A DNA stretch of 64,000 bases, taken from positions 1-64,000 of the forward strand of contig JALSOH010000009.1 of assembly GCA_026986575.1 (NCBI GenBank), written 5' to 3'. How positions within the stretch are numbered: position 1 is the first letter of the stretch; each line of letters begins with the position of its first letter. Both the position numbers and the translations under genes were made by a program. The notes beneath the pieces were generated by a model. It ran no database searches. It saw only the letters and a list, made by a program, of their open reading frames with translations, and was not told where the DNA came from. Shown piece after piece: positions 45,099 through 52,016 of this stretch. The DNA is from Thermoproteota archaeon (GTDB lineage Archaea; Korarchaeota; Korarchaeia; Korarchaeales; Korarchaeaceae).

Positions 45099-45119
45099 GT
45101 GAAAAAGCGTGATTTTCAC
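45099..45119. promoter_or_regulatory. Inverted repeat GTGAAAA-N7-TTTTCAC before secreted protein gene
   Basis: A perfect 7+7 dyad directly upstream of a TTTTATATTTAA TATA box (45124-45135) belonging to the secreted repeat protein. Possible regulator site. Confidence 0.4.
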
Positions 45120-45204
45120 GCCGGTTTTATATTTAACTGCCTTGGATGAGCAAATTATTTATTTAGCTTGTCTCGATAATTTTTTTCAGGAGGTGGGAAG
45201 TAAA

Positions 45205-46209
45205 GTGAAGTTAAGTAGGATCACTGTCTTCCTCGCCGCTGCGCTACTGGTGTCGAGCTACGCTCTGGCATCGGCTTCTCCCGTTAAACCTCCCACTGCG
45301 ACCATACTTCCTCCCCCAATACAGCTGCCGACCCCCGTACCGATACCGATAATCACTGTAACCAAGACGGAGCCTACCGTGACCATACCCAAGCCTCCAA
45401 TCACGATAATACCTATACCAACCGTCACTATTCAGCCGACCACCGCGACCTTCAGGAAGTTACATGAGGTGATCATCGAAGTGGATCCTCCCTATGCGGG
45501 GGAGGTGAAGCCCCTCGGCCAAGGAAAGCACTCCATGAAAGAGGGTAAGAGGATAGTCCTGAGGGCCGTTCCCAACGCCGGATATAAGTTCGACCACTGG
45601 ACGCTAGATGGTCATCGCAAAGTATACAGCAGGGTACTCAGGTTGCAGGTCAAGAAGGATCATGTGATCGTTGCTCACTTCGTCAAGGCCTCAAGTAGTA
45701 CTAGGAGCCCCCCTAAAATACCCACTGGATCACCATCTCCCGCAAGGGAAAGTTCCCCGGCCGGGTGCATCCTACCCAGCGACTTTCCGAAGTCTATGGC
45801 TTACTCCGGTATGTACGCTGATCTGCTGTACAACGAGGACCTGCTAGCGGGATTCGGAGAGGGAGTTGCGGGCAAGGTCATAATAGGGAGGGAGGCAGTG
45901 AGACCGCAACCCTGGCACAGTTACGGTGTGGAGATGGGCGACCTGATCCTGCGGGTTAATGGGACTAGGTACAGGGCGAGCTTCGGCTCTGAGGACTACG
46001 GCATAATATACCTTAAGTGTGAGGGCGGCCAACTCACCATAAGAGTCGCCGGATTGACTAGGTACGGCACCAGAGCGGCGCTGCTTTACCTCCTCAACCA
46101 TCCGGAGGTTGTGAACGGCAAGGTGCTTATCGTCCTAGAGTGGAAGGACTCTAACTCCAACAGAAAAGTTGAGTTGGAGGAGGTACTCCCCTTGGTATCG
46201 GTACCCTGA
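45205..46209 (+). CDS. Secreted protein with Pro-rich linker and InlB B-repeat-like domain
   Basis: From GTG 45205, preceded by GGAGGTGG, a signal peptide (ITVFLAAALLVSSYALASAS) is followed by a Pro/Thr-rich linker (TILPPPIQLPTPVPIP). Next is a domain with IVLRAVPNAGYKFDHWTLDG, the divergent InlB B-repeat or bacterial-repeat fold. The C-terminal half has YSGMYADLLYNEDLLAGFGEG and about 150 residues I cannot place. No C-terminal anchor is seen. Probably extracellular or S-layer-associated. Confidence 0.75.
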   Translation: MKLSRITVFLAAALLVSSYALASASPVKPPTATILPPPIQLPTPVPIPIITVTKTEPTVTIPKPPITIIPIPTVTIQPTTATFRKLHEVIIEVDPPYAGEVKPLGQGKHSMKEGKRIVLRAVPNAGYKFDHWTLDGHRKVYSRVLRLQVKKDHVIVAHFVKASSSTRSPPKIPTGSPSPARESSPAGCILPSDFPKSMAYSGMYADLLYNEDLLAGFGEGVAGKVIIGREAVRPQPWHSYGVEMGDLILRVNGTRYRASFGSEDYGIIYLKCEGGQLTIRVAGLTRYGTRAALLYLLNHPEVVNGKVLIVLEWKDSNSNRKVELEEVLPLVSVP

Positions 46210-46213
46210 TCCC

Positions 46214-47032
46214 TCATACCTCCTCCATCATCTTCTCTATCCACGATTTTTCTCTCCTAACTCTCAGACCCCTGAACCTAGCGAGAGCGTCAAGTATCTT
46301 GGTCTGGCCCAAGAGCAAGACTAAGGAGACAGCCATGTAGAGGAGGTTCAAGGCCCATCCTTTCATGAGGGAGAGGTAGGTTTCATAGATCCCTAGGGGC
46401 TCCTCTATTAACGCCATTGGAACCAGCTCAAGGAGGAACTCGCCTGCCAAGTTAATGAATCCTATGATGGCCGTCCCTATTATGAAGCTCAGGACCCTCA
46501 GACTCTTCGTTCTCCTATATATCATGGCAAATAGTACCTCACCAGCTAGGGCTATGACGAAGAGTATGGAGATTCCAAAGGTTACAGACACTCTCATAAT
46601 ATCAATAGACCTTACATATTCCAAGAAGACGGCCCTGAAGAGGTAATACGTGTAGAAGAGCACGTAGAAGACGAAGAGGAATATCATCGTTGGAACTAGG
46701 TAGAAAACCCTGAACTCCATTAGGTATACCGCAAGCGTAGCTACTGCTGCGGATGATAGGAGGAGGAAGCTCAGAGCTAGGAACCAGCTGAATATCTTCA
46801 CTGTGGTCTCGGCGTAAACCAGAAAGACGCTCCTGTTTAACCAGTAGTAAAATACCAAGGAGAACTCTGAGAGGGCAAAGACTAGGAATGTGCTCAGAGA
46901 GAGGAGTAACCTCCTTTCTCTTGTCCGGAGTATCTCCGCGAATATGTAAAGAGAGATCGCTATCTCGGATACCAATCCCACCAAATGGGCTAGGGGATAG
47001 GGACTCATCAGGATGGACAACAGGGGAGCCAA
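46214..47032 (-). CDS. Seven-helix membrane protein, possible receptor of the GTPase cluster
   Basis: 272 residues with about seven hydrophobic helices (IAISLYIFAEIL, LSTFLVFALSEFSLVFYYWL, FSWFLALSFLLLSSAAVATL, YLVPTMIFLFVFYVLFYTYYL, SVTFGISILFVIALAGEVLF, VLSFIIGTAIIGFINLAGEF, LLYMAVSLVLLLGQ) and a basic cytoplasmic tail ending WIEKMMEEV. It begins 12 bases after the stop of the longin-like gene, with GGAGGTGAT before a TTG at 47032. The linkage suggests a membrane partner for the signalling proteins; family not recognised. Confidence 0.72.
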   Translation of the reverse strand: MAPLLSILMSPYPLAHLVGLVSEIAISLYIFAEILRTRERRLLLSLSTFLVFALSEFSLVFYYWLNRSVFLVYAETTVKIFSWFLALSFLLLSSAAVATLAVYLMEFRVFYLVPTMIFLFVFYVLFYTYYLFRAVFLEYVRSIDIMRVSVTFGISILFVIALAGEVLFAMIYRRTKSLRVLSFIIGTAIIGFINLAGEFLLELVPMALIEEPLGIYETYLSLMKGWALNLLYMAVSLVLLLGQTKILDALARFRGLRVRREKSWIEKMMEEV

Positions 47033-47043
47033 AGTATCACCTC

Positions 47044-47502
47044 CTACATGAAGAAGAGGCCCCTAGATCTCTCAAGGGCCTTATCTACTATTCCCCGATC
47101 GTATCTCTTCTCCTCTCCCGAGGCCTCATAGCTCTCAAGCGTCCTGAATATGTCTGGGAGTATACTCTTCAGGAGTTCCTTAGTCAGCGCCTTGTTCTCG
47201 CTCAACTGCCTGTAGACTTGAATCAGCCCACCTTCCAGCCTCGAGACATCACCCTGATTCTTAGAAACTGCTAGGAGGGACGCTATCCCCGCTCGCGGCC
47301 TCTCTCCTTCCAGCCTCATGGTTATACCAACGAAGTAGAACCCTCCATGGACAAACTTGACGATCTCCCCTCCCTTAGCTGAGAATGGGAAGGACCTAAG
47401 GGGGACCGTTCCCATCTCATCTGAGAAGCTCTTTGGATAGCCAGCAATGATCTCTAGACCTCCCGGCTCGAGCGAGGCGAGCAGTAGATACTCAAGCCCC
47501 AT
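47044..47502 (-). CDS. Longin-like protein in the GTPase cluster
   Basis: The 152-residue protein begins MGLEYLLLASLEPGGLEIIA and continues GGFYFVGITMRLEGERPRAG with IASLLAVSKNQGDVSRLEGG, then helices LSENKALTKELLKSILPDI. The order of strands and helices is compatible with a longin fold (strand-strand-helix-strand-strand-strand-helices), a partner fold for small GTPases. This assignment is by pattern, not by a strict motif. Own TATA box (CTTTTATTATT near 47530) and GGAGG before ATG 47502. It is coupled to the seven-helix protein. Confidence 0.6.
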   Translation of the reverse strand: MGLEYLLLASLEPGGLEIIAGYPKSFSDEMGTVPLRSFPFSAKGGEIVKFVHGGFYFVGITMRLEGERPRAGIASLLAVSKNQGDVSRLEGGLIQVYRQLSENKALTKELLKSILPDIFRTLESYEASGEEKRYDRGIVDKALERSRGLFFM

Positions 47503-47599: not shown

Positions 47600-48490
47600 T
47601 CACTCGGCGTACCTGGCCATCATGTCAATAAGAATGTCCTTCACTTTACTGTAGTCCTTGGTCTTCGATATGCTGTTGATCACATCCATTAAAAGGGCCC
47701 TGACTTTGCTCTCTGGGGACCTCTTTGGTATCAAGGCAGCTGCAAGCAGCCCCTTCTTGTAGGCTATCACGATCTTCCTGTCCTTCATTTCTATGGACTG
47801 GGGGATGTCCCTCAAGGCATCCTCCGTGTAGTTCTTAGTGAGGGATAGAAACGCGCTCAGAGTGAGGCTCCTAGATGAAGATGTCGACACCAGAGGGTTG
47901 CCATGCTCGTCGAGGATCACGAGCTCCTCGATCCTCATTGGATGAATGACTTCTCCACCGGTGAGCTGCTCGTAGAGCCAAGCGAACGCCTCAAACAATC
48001 CAAAGCCCGTAAGGGCGCTGGTCCATACCACCTGCCAAGGTATCCCTTCCAGCTTGGTCAGGTCGAAGTAGTCTATCACCTCCATGACCGTGGCAGCATC
48101 CTCCAGATCCGCCTTGTTGGCCAGCACTAGAAGGGGGATGTTCCTCTTCATCATCGAGATAACGTTCCAGAGCTCCGCCTTTGCCTCATCAAATCTCTCT
48201 CTATCGGCGGAGTCGATGACGAATATTATGGCATCTGCCTTCTCTGCGTACTCAGCCCAGATCCTTCGGAGGGACCTCTGTCCTCCAAGATCCCATACAT
48301 TAAATTCGAGGTTCCTGACTCTGAGCCTCTCGTAGTTCGCTCCCACCGTCGGTATCGTCGATCCAGGCTCTCCCTTCCTTAAGTAGTTCAGTAGGGTGGT
48401 CTTACCGGCCCCATCAAGTCCCAGAATGACCAGAGTTGCTGACCTCCTGAAGAGGCCCAGCAGATTTGAGATGAGTCTTCCGAAGGGCAT
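47600..48490 (-). CDS. Arf/Sar1-like small GTPase with C-terminal longin/roadblock-like domain
   Basis: Residues 17-175 form an Arf-family G domain: P-loop GLDGAGKTT (24-32), switch I Thr48 in PTVGANYE, switch II DLGGQ (67-71) with the Arf-type RRIWAEYAEKADAIIFVIDS, NKAD (125-128) and TSAL. There is no Gly2 for myristoylation. Residues about 176-296 form a second domain, starting ELVILDEHGNPLVSTSSSRS, with alternating strands and helices like a roadblock or longin module. Rag/Gtr GTPases have a similar G-domain plus roadblock layout. It has its own TATA-like element (CTATTTTAG) about 30 bases upstream. Confidence 0.88.
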   Translation of the reverse strand: MPFGRLISNLLGLFRRSATLVILGLDGAGKTTLLNYLRKGEPGSTIPTVGANYERLRVRNLEFNVWDLGGQRSLRRIWAEYAEKADAIIFVIDSADRERFDEAKAELWNVISMMKRNIPLLVLANKADLEDAATVMEVIDYFDLTKLEGIPWQVVWTSALTGFGLFEAFAWLYEQLTGGEVIHPMRIEELVILDEHGNPLVSTSSSRSLTLSAFLSLTKNYTEDALRDIPQSIEMKDRKIVIAYKKGLLAAALIPKRSPESKVRALLMDVINSISKTKDYSKVKDILIDMMARYAE

Positions 48491-48558: not shown

Positions 48559-48948
48559 TTAATTAATCTCCGACCCATCGCCTCCAAGGTACGACCTGAG
48601 CTCCGATATCAGGTAGTCTATCTTCTCCTTCATGTCATTGTAATCCCTCACTCCAAGCCCCAGGTAGACATCCTTCCCTACTGTGGCAAGCACCATGCAA
48701 CCGTTCTCAGATCTCAGAAGGCACATATTGAAGCTTCCCAAGCCAGCGTGTTCTGAGAGAGACCGGGATATCTCGACTATGGCTGCGCTTGAGGCAAGGA
48801 AGAAATCCTTAACCATCTCCTCGGAGAGGGAATCGTAGAGAGATATCCCGTCGGGAGTGAACAGCCCTATAAAGAGCAAGTCCTCCCCCGCATCGTCCGC
48901 GAACCTCTCAAGTATGGCCCTGAATTCCTTAGTCAGCTCGGGCATCAT
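48559..48948 (-). CDS. Roadblock/LC7 domain protein (MglB-like)
   Basis: A 129-residue protein with the Roadblock pattern: ELTKEFRAILERFADDAG, LFIGLFTPDGISLYDSLSEE, FFLASSAAIVEISRSLSEHAG and MVLATVGKDVYLGLGVRDY. Roadblock proteins form dimers that bind small GTPases; MglB is the GAP and regulator of MglA. It overlaps the upstream coiled-coil gene by ATGA and lies just before the Arf-like GTPase gene, strongly suggesting they work together. Confidence 0.88.
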   Translation of the reverse strand: MMPELTKEFRAILERFADDAGEDLLFIGLFTPDGISLYDSLSEEMVKDFFLASSAAIVEISRSLSEHAGLGSFNMCLLRSENGCMVLATVGKDVYLGLGVRDYNDMKEKIDYLISELRSYLGGDGSEIN

Positions 48949-49688
48949 TCACCACCGCGCGGGAAGATGACTGAGCTGCTCCTCAGCTCATCAAGGTACC
49001 TAGCCACTCCAGGAGCCAACTGCCTGTACTTCCCCACCAAGAACCTGAGGTATCCGAGGATCTCCATGAGGTCCTTGATCTTGTTAGCGATCTCCCTCTC
49101 CTCGAAGTCGCTGTAGACCTCCCTAAGTACCTCACCTATCTCATCGAGCTTGTCGGCTATGGACTCAACATCCCCGTCGTAGGGAGGAAGCATGTCCCTC
49201 ATCAGGTCCACCAGCATCTCCAAATAGTTGCTTGGCATGTAACTGAGCTTGGCTGGTGCCTCGTTTACCCTCGCTGCTAGGAACCTTATCTCGGCTCCTG
49301 CATCCGGCATCCTCCTGAGCACCTCTCCTAAAACGGACGTCGCAAGCTCTATCTCTCGCTCTATCTGGGTGAGTAGGTCGCCTATCCTATTCCTCATCCT
49401 CCTGATATCTTCCCTGAGCCTTCTCATCTCCTCCCTCTTCGGAAGTTCCCCCTCGGCTCGATCGAGAACTCTGCTCATTCCATTTATCAGGAGGGACACC
49501 TCCCTCTCTAGTTCATTGAGCTCTCTGTCGAAGCTCCTCCTGAGAAGGGGGCTCGAGGCCTTGAGGAGGCTGTCAGCTCTCCTGAGGTCATTCACCACAT
49601 AATAAACGTCCTCATAGAGTGAGAGAATGAGTAACTTCATTTCCAACCTTTTCGCTTCATCTTCCTCCAAATATCTTTCCAACATCAT
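48945..49688 (-). CDS. Coiled-coil protein of the GTPase cluster
   Basis: 247 residues, almost all helical, rich in Glu/Arg/Leu heptads (MRRLREDIRRMRNRIGDLLTQ in two pieces; DRELNELEREVSLLINGMSR). A segment APAKLSYMPSNYLEMLVDLM resembles one in the 562-residue protein encoded divergently (QPEKLSYRTESDFLKSLIET), so the two share a domain. Leaderless ATG about 22 bases from a shared TATA box. Function unknown; perhaps a scaffold or effector for the GTPase and Roadblock protein. Confidence 0.78.
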   Translation of the reverse strand: MMLERYLEEDEAKRLEMKLLILSLYEDVYYVVNDLRRADSLLKASSPLLRRSFDRELNELEREVSLLINGMSRVLDRAEGELPKREEMRRLREDIRRMRNRIGDLLTQIEREIELATSVLGEVLRRMPDAGAEIRFLAARVNEAPAKLSYMPSNYLEMLVDLMRDMLPPYDGDVESIADKLDEIGEVLREVYSDFEEREIANKIKDLMEILGYLRFLVGKYRQLAPGVARYLDELRSSSVIFPRGGE

Positions 49689-49747: not shown

Positions 49748-51436
49748 ATGGAACCGAAGACCTTGGAGGAGATACTCAATCACCTGAGGAATTCTGGCCT
49801 TCCCCCCGAGAGGATAAATAAGTTCGTTAACCTGTTGAGGAAGGACGGAGTTCTAGATGTGATTGTGAGGGTCCTCAGCAGGTGCCGATCCTTGGAGGAT
49901 GCGCTTAAGGAGATCTCCAGCCTAGGAGGAATGGCCGATGTCTCTAAGGAGATCTCCCACAAGGTCAGTATAGTCAGGAACTTCGTCCTCACGTCCCTAG
50001 TGAATCTTTCCGTTGACAAGTCCTACATGAGGAGTTTCTTCAGGAAGAAGTCTAAGGCTAAGAAGCTAAGAGAGATACTTGTATCTACCGAGGAGGAGCT
50101 TAAGGAGACAGAGGCTCGTCTCTTAGAAGCCGTGAGGGGTGTACTCCTCAAGACCCTAGAATCCCTTGAGATCAGGGATGGAACACTCAAGGCTGAGATA
50201 GAAGGAATAAAAAGCCTTCAGGATCTAGAGATAGCCAAGAAAATTTGGAATAAGATTAAGCCCGAGTTAGAAAGGGCTGTGGATGGGACCAAGTCTCAAG
50301 GCCAAGTGAGAAGGGGCGAGGAGGCCGTGCTGATAACAGACGATTTACTCAACGAGATACTCGAAGCCTTGGCGAGGATGGAAGACAACAGGAAGGAGCT
50401 AGAGCTGAGAGGGTGCACCTTCCTCCTCCTCTCTGAGGTATCATCCCTCAAGGATCAGATCCTAAGCTGGCTCTCTTCTAACTTCGGGAAGGAGTCTTAC
50501 GGGGTAACTAGTCTCCTTAAGATAATAAGAAGGCTATCCGACGACTCGGAAACCCTCCTCTCTACTTCCATTAGACTGCTGAACTTGAGGTCCGAGCTTG
50601 AGGCGGTCAAGAGGGAGGTCTTGGATAAGATCAGCCGGAAGATGCCCCATCTCACGGAGGCCATATCGATGATAGGACTGAGCTCACCGAGGCTCCCCTG
50701 CATCATCTCCATGCCCGAGGAGATAGCCAGCCTGAGGTACGAGGTTTCAAGGCTTGGAGACACGGTGAATGCCCTCAAAGAGCTCAGCAGCGAGCTGGAT
50801 CACTTCACTGACGAGATCAAGTTCCAGCCGGAGAAGCTGTCCTACAGAACAGAGTCCGACTTCCTGAAGAGCCTAATAGAGACTCTCAGGGCCTTCAGAC
50901 TCTCTAGAGGACTCCCAAGCACGGCTTACTCTCTACCAGGTCTAATGGAGGAGCTGCTCTCCCTCTATCCGAGATGGAGGGAGTACGTGAAAGAACAACT
51001 GGAGGAAAAGGGCTACCTTGAGATAGGGGAACTCTCATTCATACCGGAGATGTGGAGAGAGTGGTTCCTTTCTAACTTGGAGGAGGAGGGGCTTACCACA
51101 ATCTCCGATGGGAAGATACTCCCCAGAGCTCCCAGTTCCGAACTAAGAAAGCTCAGAATGAAATTCGAGTTCCTGAAGGACACCTACGAGGACATGAAAC
51201 CCATATTCCAGAAGGCGGGGATAAGCGAGCAATACTTAAACTCCTTGGAGAGGAAGCTAGCCCTCCTGATGGATCCCAACTATGGGGGTGAAGATAGAGA
51301 GAAGCTGCAAAGGGAGGTTGAGGAAGGCATAGAAAGGGCCCTGAACGTTCTCAAGGGTGGTGGGGTGCCCGATGAGAAAGATGAGACTGGTGGTGATGGG
51401 CCCGCACCAAGCTGGCAAGTCCACCTTGATTCATAG
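49748..51436 (+). CDS. Large helical/coiled-coil protein of the GTPase cluster
   Basis: 562 residues, highly helical, with long coiled-coil segments (ILVSTEEELKETEARLLEAV; LEAVKREVLDKISRKMPHL). There is a shared motif FQPEKLSYRTESDFLKSLIE near residue 360 with the 247-residue neighbour. A winged-helix-like stretch follows (LEEKGYLEIGELSFIPEMWR). No enzyme motif. Its 3' end overlaps the GTPase gene by 65 bases, so the two are coupled. Probably a scaffold connecting the GTPase to the membrane machine. Confidence 0.78.
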   Translation: MEPKTLEEILNHLRNSGLPPERINKFVNLLRKDGVLDVIVRVLSRCRSLEDALKEISSLGGMADVSKEISHKVSIVRNFVLTSLVNLSVDKSYMRSFFRKKSKAKKLREILVSTEEELKETEARLLEAVRGVLLKTLESLEIRDGTLKAEIEGIKSLQDLEIAKKIWNKIKPELERAVDGTKSQGQVRRGEEAVLITDDLLNEILEALARMEDNRKELELRGCTFLLLSEVSSLKDQILSWLSSNFGKESYGVTSLLKIIRRLSDDSETLLSTSIRLLNLRSELEAVKREVLDKISRKMPHLTEAISMIGLSSPRLPCIISMPEEIASLRYEVSRLGDTVNALKELSSELDHFTDEIKFQPEKLSYRTESDFLKSLIETLRAFRLSRGLPSTAYSLPGLMEELLSLYPRWREYVKEQLEEKGYLEIGELSFIPEMWREWFLSNLEEEGLTTISDGKILPRAPSSELRKLRMKFEFLKDTYEDMKPIFQKAGISEQYLNSLERKLALLMDPNYGGEDREKLQREVEEGIERALNVLKGGGVPDEKDETGGDGPAPSWQVHLDS

Positions 51437-52016
51437 GCTCGATCCTTGGGCCGTCAGGATGGACTACTCCAAGGGCACCTTCTCAACCACCGTTGGCTTC
51501 GACTACGGCATAGTCCTCTGGGACGCTACTGAGGACAGGATATACAGGAGGGATCAGATAGATCTCGTGGACCCCTCGAACGAGATATGGAAGGTCACCA
51601 TAACCGGAACTCCGGGACAGATAGCCTTCGCCCCTGTGAGGAAGGTGCTGGCTAAGGGTAAGGATGGGGTGATGCTCGTGATCGACAGCGCACGTCCAGT
51701 TCAGATGGTCTACGCGTTGAGCCAGTATCAGGAGGCGAGGGAGTCTGCTGGTTCCGTGCCTCTCATAATACTCGCTAATAAGCAAGACCTTCCACATGCT
51801 AAGAGTGCCGAGACGATAGCCTCCCTCTTGGGCATAAGGTGCAGAGTCGTCCCGATATCCGCGCTGAAGGGGACCAATGTGGAGGAAAGCTTTCTCCAGT
51901 TTCTCAAGGAGGTAAGGAGAAGCATCCTCGCTAAGTCCATATCGGAGAGATTGGCCGAGAGAAAGGAGTCAAGGTGGATATCTTGGATGAGAAGAAAGCT
52001 AGCATCATCCGTTTGA
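51372..52016 (+). CDS. MglA/COG2229-like small GTPase
   Basis: 214 residues: G1 MGPHQAGKSTL, G2 Thr in TFSTTVGFDYG, G3 TGTPGQ (in place of DxxG; shared with COG2229 GTPases), G4 LANKQD, G5 ISALKG. COG2229 proteins pair with Roadblock proteins in bacterial conservons. A basic amphipathic tail (SRWISWMRRKLASSV) could contact membrane. ATG 51372 follows GGTGGGGTG. A close relative starts at 63958. Confidence 0.88.
   Translation: MRKMRLVVMGPHQAGKSTLIHRLDPWAVRMDYSKGTFSTTVGFDYGIVLWDATEDRIYRRDQIDLVDPSNEIWKVTITGTPGQIAFAPVRKVLAKGKDGVMLVIDSARPVQMVYALSQYQEARESAGSVPLIILANKQDLPHAKSAETIASLLGIRCRVVPISALKGTNVEESFLQFLKEVRRSILAKSISERLAERKESRWISWMRRKLASSV

Follow-up and report, generated by a model that had tools for sequence, protein, structure and literature searches.

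Fusions between longin domains and Arf-like GTPases were reported from Lokiarchaeum in 2016 (PMC4917890, Box 1, citing Klinger et al.), and a structural survey mentions a Lokiarchaeon in which Rag/Arf-like GTPases carry fused longin or roadblock domains (PMC10933270). The archaeal Arf relatives (ArfRs) were described as exclusive to Asgard archaea in a 2025 review (PMC12554972), and a passage of the 2016 review lists small GTPases of this kind as absent from TACK archaea (PMC4917890). In the receptor of the signal recognition particle, SRβ, which is related to Arf and Sar1, is bound by SRX, a domain of SRα with a longin fold (PMC4686813).

Here, we analysed a korarchaeal stretch of 64,000 nucleotides (the window) encoding ArfL, an Arf-type GTPase with a predicted longin domain fused to its C terminus, in a row with a separate longin-fold protein (LongP) and a predicted seven-helix membrane protein (7TM). 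ArfL shares with the lokiarchaeal fusions the combination of an Arf-type G domain and a longin, and Lokiarchaeota ArfL has the same layout at 298 aa, but the reports of those fusions, in the parts that treat them, concern Asgard archaea and do not describe LongP or 7TM partners, whereas the present case is korarchaeal. The SRβ/SRX pair likewise brings an Arf-family GTPase together with a longin at a membrane, as we propose for ArfL; SRX, however, is part of SRα and SRβ has its own membrane anchor, whereas in the ArfL set one longin is fused to the GTPase, a second is separate, and the 7TM protein is a candidate anchor. Eukaryotic Arf1 has the same type of G domain, and the longin subunits with which it works in AP and COPI coats (AP sigma/mu, zeta-COP) are nearest to the model of the ArfL C-terminal domain, but there Arf and longin are not fused and the C-domain resembles those subunits moderately (TM about 0.6). 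Rag/Gtr GTPases and LokiRagO (8yl2) also place a roadblock/longin-class domain after the G domain, yet differ from ArfL in the type of G domain and in the secondary-structure order of the second domain. Our literature search, outside which lay the 2025 Asgard Arf papers in Nature Microbiology and Nature Communications, found no report of an Arf, LongP and 7TM set or of ArfL in korarchaea. The Arf-longin fusion itself was already known; its korarchaeal location and the accompanying gene set appear to be new.

Results

The locus comprises the following features, with the basis of each assignment in brackets:

47600..48490, minus strand: ArfL, Arf-type GTPase with fused C-terminal longin domain, 296 aa (ATG start)
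48443..48490, minus strand: N-terminal segment MPFGRLISNLLGLFRR of ArfL, predicted amphipathic helix as in Arf (hydrophobic moment)
47960..48490, minus strand: Arf-type G domain of ArfL, residues 1-177 (PF00025, E 3.8e-53, 180 bits)
47603..47959, minus strand: predicted C-terminal longin-type domain of ArfL, residues 178-296 (AlphaFold2 model, Foldseek)
47044..47502, minus strand: LongP, separate protein of predicted longin fold, 152 aa (AlphaFold2, Foldseek, profile homology)
46214..47032, minus strand: predicted seven-helix membrane protein, 272 aa (family-profile hydropathy and charge pattern)
48559..48948, minus strand: roadblock/LC7-like protein, 129 aa (PF03259, E 0.0017, under the Pfam cut-off)
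48945..49688, minus strand: 247-aa protein, helical and probably coiled-coil, first in the gene row (4-base overlap with the roadblock gene)

The Pfam Arf profile matches residues 11-175 of ArfL (E = 3.8e-53) with 180 bits against a cut-off of 22.3, compared with 54 bits for Ras, 44.5 for SRPRB and 30 for Gtr1_RagA. An earlier note, made from the letters of the window, had read a full Arf motif set in this G domain, and both the ORF with its coordinates and the motifs bear this out: GLDGAGKTT (residues 24-32), PTVG (47-50), WDLGGQ (66-71), NKAD (125-128) and TSA (157-159) provide Arf-type G1-G5 motifs with the catalytic glutamine in WDxGGQ, which by motif and profile assigns the protein to the Arf family. 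Residues T48, W66, Q71, N125, K126 and D128 are unchanging across the ArfL family alignment (A1), and ArfL and Arf1 numbering coincide for T31, T48, W66 and Q71. All top matches in a PDB sequence search were Arf/Arl proteins, and the G domain did not group with bacterial-type GTPases only, an outcome that the earlier note had named as fatal to its reading; its closest matches are not bacterial GTPases. Across two family searches of sampled archaea, complete ORFs of the window's genus scored 170-184 bits against the Arf profile and one truncated copy 133; the highest score among 29 sampled Asgard genomes was 148 bits. Ratios of dN/dS of about 0.01-0.2 in both ArfL domains indicate purifying selection on each. 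The 11 residues RLISNLLGLFR ahead of G1 reach a maximum hydrophobic moment of 0.71, against 0.57 for human ARF1, and are predicted to form an N-terminal amphipathic helix of the Arf kind. Transmembrane segments were absent from the Lokiarchaeal ArfL proteins in a hydropathy scan, and the ArfL sequence of the window shows no evident one either.

The SRPRB profile also matches ArfL (E 1.5e-11), and in SRX there is a precedent for the binding of an Arf-family GTPase by a longin (PMC4686813), so that the locus might encode a targeting receptor related to that of the signal recognition particle, with ArfL as SRβ, LongP as SRX and the 7TM protein as a translocon-associated factor. We regard this as very unlikely, given an SRPRB score of 44.5 bits against 180 for Arf, a gene row that showed no connection with SRP or Sec genes, and absence from most korarchaea, which would be odd for a core targeting factor. 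Membership of ArfL in the SRβ family was itself rejected on the same two scores and on the lack of an evident N-terminal membrane anchor.

For the C-terminal region, AlphaFold2 modelling of residues 178-296 with 19 homologues (pLDDT 80.8, pTM 0.75) gave the order β-β-α-β-β-β-α-α, with no helix ahead of the first strand and two helices past the last. Longin domains have the order bbabbbaa, while roadblock domains start with a helix and run a-b-b-a-b-b-b. Foldseek searches of the PDB with the model returned sigma and mu subunits of AP-1/2/3, Mon1-Ccz1, MglB, zeta-COP and an Asgard roadblock (E 2.4e-5 to 1e-3, TM around 0.4-0.65). In the model the longin/roadblock fold class is therefore secure and the nearest subfamily is not; we claim no specific kinship with the AP/COPI longins, because the match is moderate and near that of other longins and MglB. 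By order and fold match the domain is predicted to belong to the longin superfamily, and a roadblock identity was ruled out by the predicted order, though the two folds are close. The region of about 120 residues is conserved across korarchaeal and Lokiarchaeota relatives at about 97% to 14% identity, and no direct sequence relationship between the fused longin and either LongP or the roadblock protein could be detected. The earlier note had proposed a C-terminal region of roadblock/longin type and had conceded that an unrelated fold would overturn it; structure prediction and Foldseek agree on that fold class, now narrowed to the longin order, and no unrelated fold was seen.

The same note had observed that Rag/Gtr GTPases share this layout with a G domain of another type, which the Arf and Gtr1_RagA scores confirm. 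The layout might nevertheless reflect a Rag-like switch, in which ArfL would form homo- or heterodimers through its C-terminal domains on a Ragulator-like platform of LongP and the roadblock protein and report nutrient state. Such a switch would fit the G domain followed by a roadblock/longin-class domain, the roadblock gene next door, the likeness of the LongP model to GATOR1 subunits and other mTORC1-pathway longins, and one G-domain tree in which Rag falls close to ArfL and the cassette Arfs, a placement with long branches that is not significant. It is unlikely in our estimation, since Gtr1_RagA scores only 30 bits against 180 for Arf and the fused domain follows the longin order; its Rag counterpart is a roadblock-type domain with an N-terminal helix that the ArfL model lacks. 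On these scores and the domain order, ArfL was not assigned to the Rag/Gtr family.

LongP gave no match in sequence and profile searches of Pfam, NCBIfam and the PDB, and only its fold revealed its identity. Its AlphaFold2 model (pLDDT 77.9, final 21 residues of low confidence) has the order bbabbbaa, and Foldseek matched it to GATOR1 subunits, a crystallised Lokiarchaeota longin domain and Lst4, so that it too is predicted to be a member of the longin domain superfamily. Profile comparisons between korarchaeal and Asgard LongP (hhalign E 1.6e-14, 7.7e-9 and 1.5e-6, each a single comparison; reversed controls at best 0.037) argue firmly for homology between the window's genus and Asgard archaea. 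In a Lokiarchaeal ORF of 275-283 aa (L206:4576-5400, equivalent to L107), LongP runs directly into an ArfL-type longin domain and the G domain is missing, suggesting that the two longins meet; it may be a natural fusion or a deletion product.

The family profile of the 272-aa protein contains seven hydrophobic segments, with positive charges mostly in the tail and in the loops that follow helices 1 and 5, a positive-inside pattern that predicts a 7TM protein with its N terminus outside and C terminus inside. The predicted cytosolic tail ends in SWIEKMMEEV and conserves W-I, and Pfam and NCBIfam searches with the protein gave no match. Homology of the membrane proteins between korarchaea and Asgard archaea is moderately indicated for the TM2 family of f50 and f52 (hhalign E 2.9e-5; 20 block shuffles at best 0.12), more weakly for others, and weakly for Lokiarchaeota TM proteins (E 0.011).

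ArfL, LongP and the 7TM gene are adjacent in the window, separated by 97 and 11 bases; LongP and 7TM lie downstream of ArfL, and the genes for the roadblock-like and 247-aa proteins upstream. A promoter and terminator scan, with models of bacterial type, was near chance and hence uninformative. The profile of the roadblock-like protein matches an Asgard roadblock (9jue, E 0.002); its gene adjoins ArfL in most of the genus, with a distribution less strict than that of ArfL, LongP and 7TM, and it is not among the gene sets seen in Asgard loci. The 247-aa protein is missing from the equivalent place in two other loci (L007 and L009). An adjacent roadblock gene, together with the matches of the C-domain model to MglB chains, invites comparison with MglA/MglB polarity switches, the roadblock protein serving as GAP and the fused longin as a built-in GAP or dimerisation device that would position surface machinery. 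This seems decidedly unlikely, as the G domain carries the Arf-type WDLGGQ and not the TPGQ type of the MglA-like protein at 51357-52016, and the roadblock protein stands outside the Asgard gene sets and differs in distribution.

Other genes of the region were also recorded. On the plus strand at 51357-52016, in the opposite orientation, lies a second GTPase of 219 aa with the G3 motif TPGQ (MglA/archaeal type), which overlaps the end of the gene for a 562-aa helical protein (49748-51436) and has relatives elsewhere in the genus. A probably secreted protein of 366 aa, encoded at 45109-46209 on the plus strand, contains a divergent InlB B-repeat domain (PF18998, E 4.4e-8).

Among korarchaea, ArfL occurs in a single genus, in 10 of its 16 genomes. 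ArfL, LongP and 7TM are found in the same 10 of 29 korarchaeal genomes, all of the window's genus, and are missing from the same 19; G005 and G008 carry two copies of each. The chance of identical sets is about 5e-8 per pair if genomes are taken as independent, which korarchaeal genomes are not. This co-occurrence shows shared function, not mechanism. In two of the ten genomes intact LongP is not directly beside ArfL: G005 has it at a distance of about 3 kb on the contig that carries ArfL, and the only copy adjoining ArfL in G001 is partly decayed. G001 also has, on contig C36 at about 15.0-17.5 kb, a diverged pair of LongP and 7TM near a small GTPase of Ras-like and not Arf type (L026), which may be a related set built around a different switch. 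At the thresholds applied, neither the longin domain of ArfL nor LongP had a match in any other non-Asgard genome among 394 sampled archaea. Contamination was rejected because ArfL and its neighbours occur in G009, a single contig of 1,590,757 bases, as well as in ten genomes of the genus, and because the window genes are similar in composition.

In Asgard archaea, 11 Lokiarchaeota loci align to ArfL over residues 13-254 at about 31-35% identity with the same domain order, and all 11 have LongP and one or two multi-TM genes beside ArfL. ArfL of families f50 and f52 adjoins LongP, mostly followed by TM genes, in the usual order ArfL, LongP, TM1, TM2, while the row in f37 and f42 consists of LongP, a single-domain Arf without the fused longin, and 7TM. 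At least five Asgard families thus have the set in other gene orders, two of them with an Arf that lacks the fused longin; because the fusion occurs in only part of the sets, we take the core to be Arf, LongP and 7TM. One Asgard ArfL (L109) has no LongP on its short contig.

Several further Asgard loci contain related proteins. A Rag-like GTPase (L195:1891-2877) overlaps by a few bases the ArfL nearest the korarchaeal ones, on a short contig without LongP. Loki- and Helarchaeota proteins (L057-L061, L050) have the reverse order, the Arf-type G domain coming after an N-terminal region that looks longin-like by eye. Most Lokiarchaeal loci have upstream of the cassette a FAD-type oxidoreductase-like gene and a gene (L039:1605-2357 and equivalents) for a 250-aa protein that weakly matches the first longin of FUZ/MON1 (PF19036, E 0.0027). 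In family f37 (L208 and L210), a flavin-reductase-like gene downstream of the cassette is followed by one or more proteins of about 467 aa with weak longin matches of INTU/CCZ1 type.

A first maximum-likelihood tree of the G domain joined ArfL of korarchaea and of Asgard archaea as a single clade (93.9/99) on the Arf side, grouped with Arf/ArfR; in a second, with more sequences, clade support was lower and details disagreed with the first. Among the eukaryotic references in these trees, SAR1A and RAGA are letter-for-letter identical to PDB entries and ARL8 matches PDB ARL8 chains. The AU test rejected none of eight alternative topologies, and the trees are therefore not used here to infer how eukaryotic Arf arose.

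Discussion

We propose that ArfL is a membrane-associated switch of the Arf family that works in complex with the products of its neighbours LongP and 7TM, a reading that we hold with moderate confidence. On binding GTP, ArfL would expel its N-terminal amphipathic helix onto the inner side of the cell membrane, the way eukaryotic Arf does, and the fused longin would pair with LongP to form a longin-longin platform. LongP may touch the G domain and serve as exchange factor, effector or anchor, comparable to the way in which the SRX longin of SRα holds SRβ, and the 7TM protein, with its positively charged cytosolic tail, could act in the membrane as a receptor or anchor, recruiting or setting the switch. 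In the window's genus the roadblock protein would be an addition, possibly a GAP or adaptor like MglB. The Arf profile, the longin folds, co-inheritance, adjacency, the Asgard sets, the ORF joining LongP to a longin and the SRβ/SRX precedent count for this model; the displaced or decayed LongP in two of ten korarchaea, the Asgard ArfL without LongP and the weak homology of the Lokiarchaeota TM proteins count against it. A more far-reaching version, which we offer tentatively and consider rather doubtful, is a receptor-coupled prokaryotic Arf switch in which 7TM signals to Arf through the longin pair, and which predates eukaryotes, extends outside Asgard archaea and resembles the ground state of Arf-longin coats, of the SRP receptor and perhaps of 7TM-coupled G proteins.

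The earlier note had further suggested that the fusion may illustrate an early step in the origin of eukaryotic GTPase-longin regulation. The Arf-type G domain and the predicted longin-class C-terminal domain stand, while the G-domain tree and the eight AU topologies are compatible with a lineage ancestral to, sister to or distant from eukaryotic Arf or Rag. As worded, the suggestion was not supported: Arf-longin fusions were already known in Lokiarchaeum, and presence in a single genus allows transfer from Asgard archaea. The set was either acquired in this way or kept from a common ancestor, and horizontal transfer is plausible because of its restriction to one korarchaeal genus.

Conclusion

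The conserved gene neighbourhood is the most informative part of the locus. A strong Arf in the single-contig genome of a korarchaeal genus challenges both the view that ArfRs are exclusive to Asgard archaea (PMC12554972) and their listed absence from TACK archaea in the relevant passage of the 2016 review (PMC4917890). With the Arf, LongP and 7TM set present in a non-Asgard archaeon and in several Asgard lineages, the link between an Arf switch, longins and the membrane is probably older and wider than eukaryotes. The conserved set names concrete partners for an archaeal Arf, a longin protein and a 7TM protein, and therefore makes the origin of the Arf-longin-membrane link testable with small recombinant proteins, including those of thermophiles.
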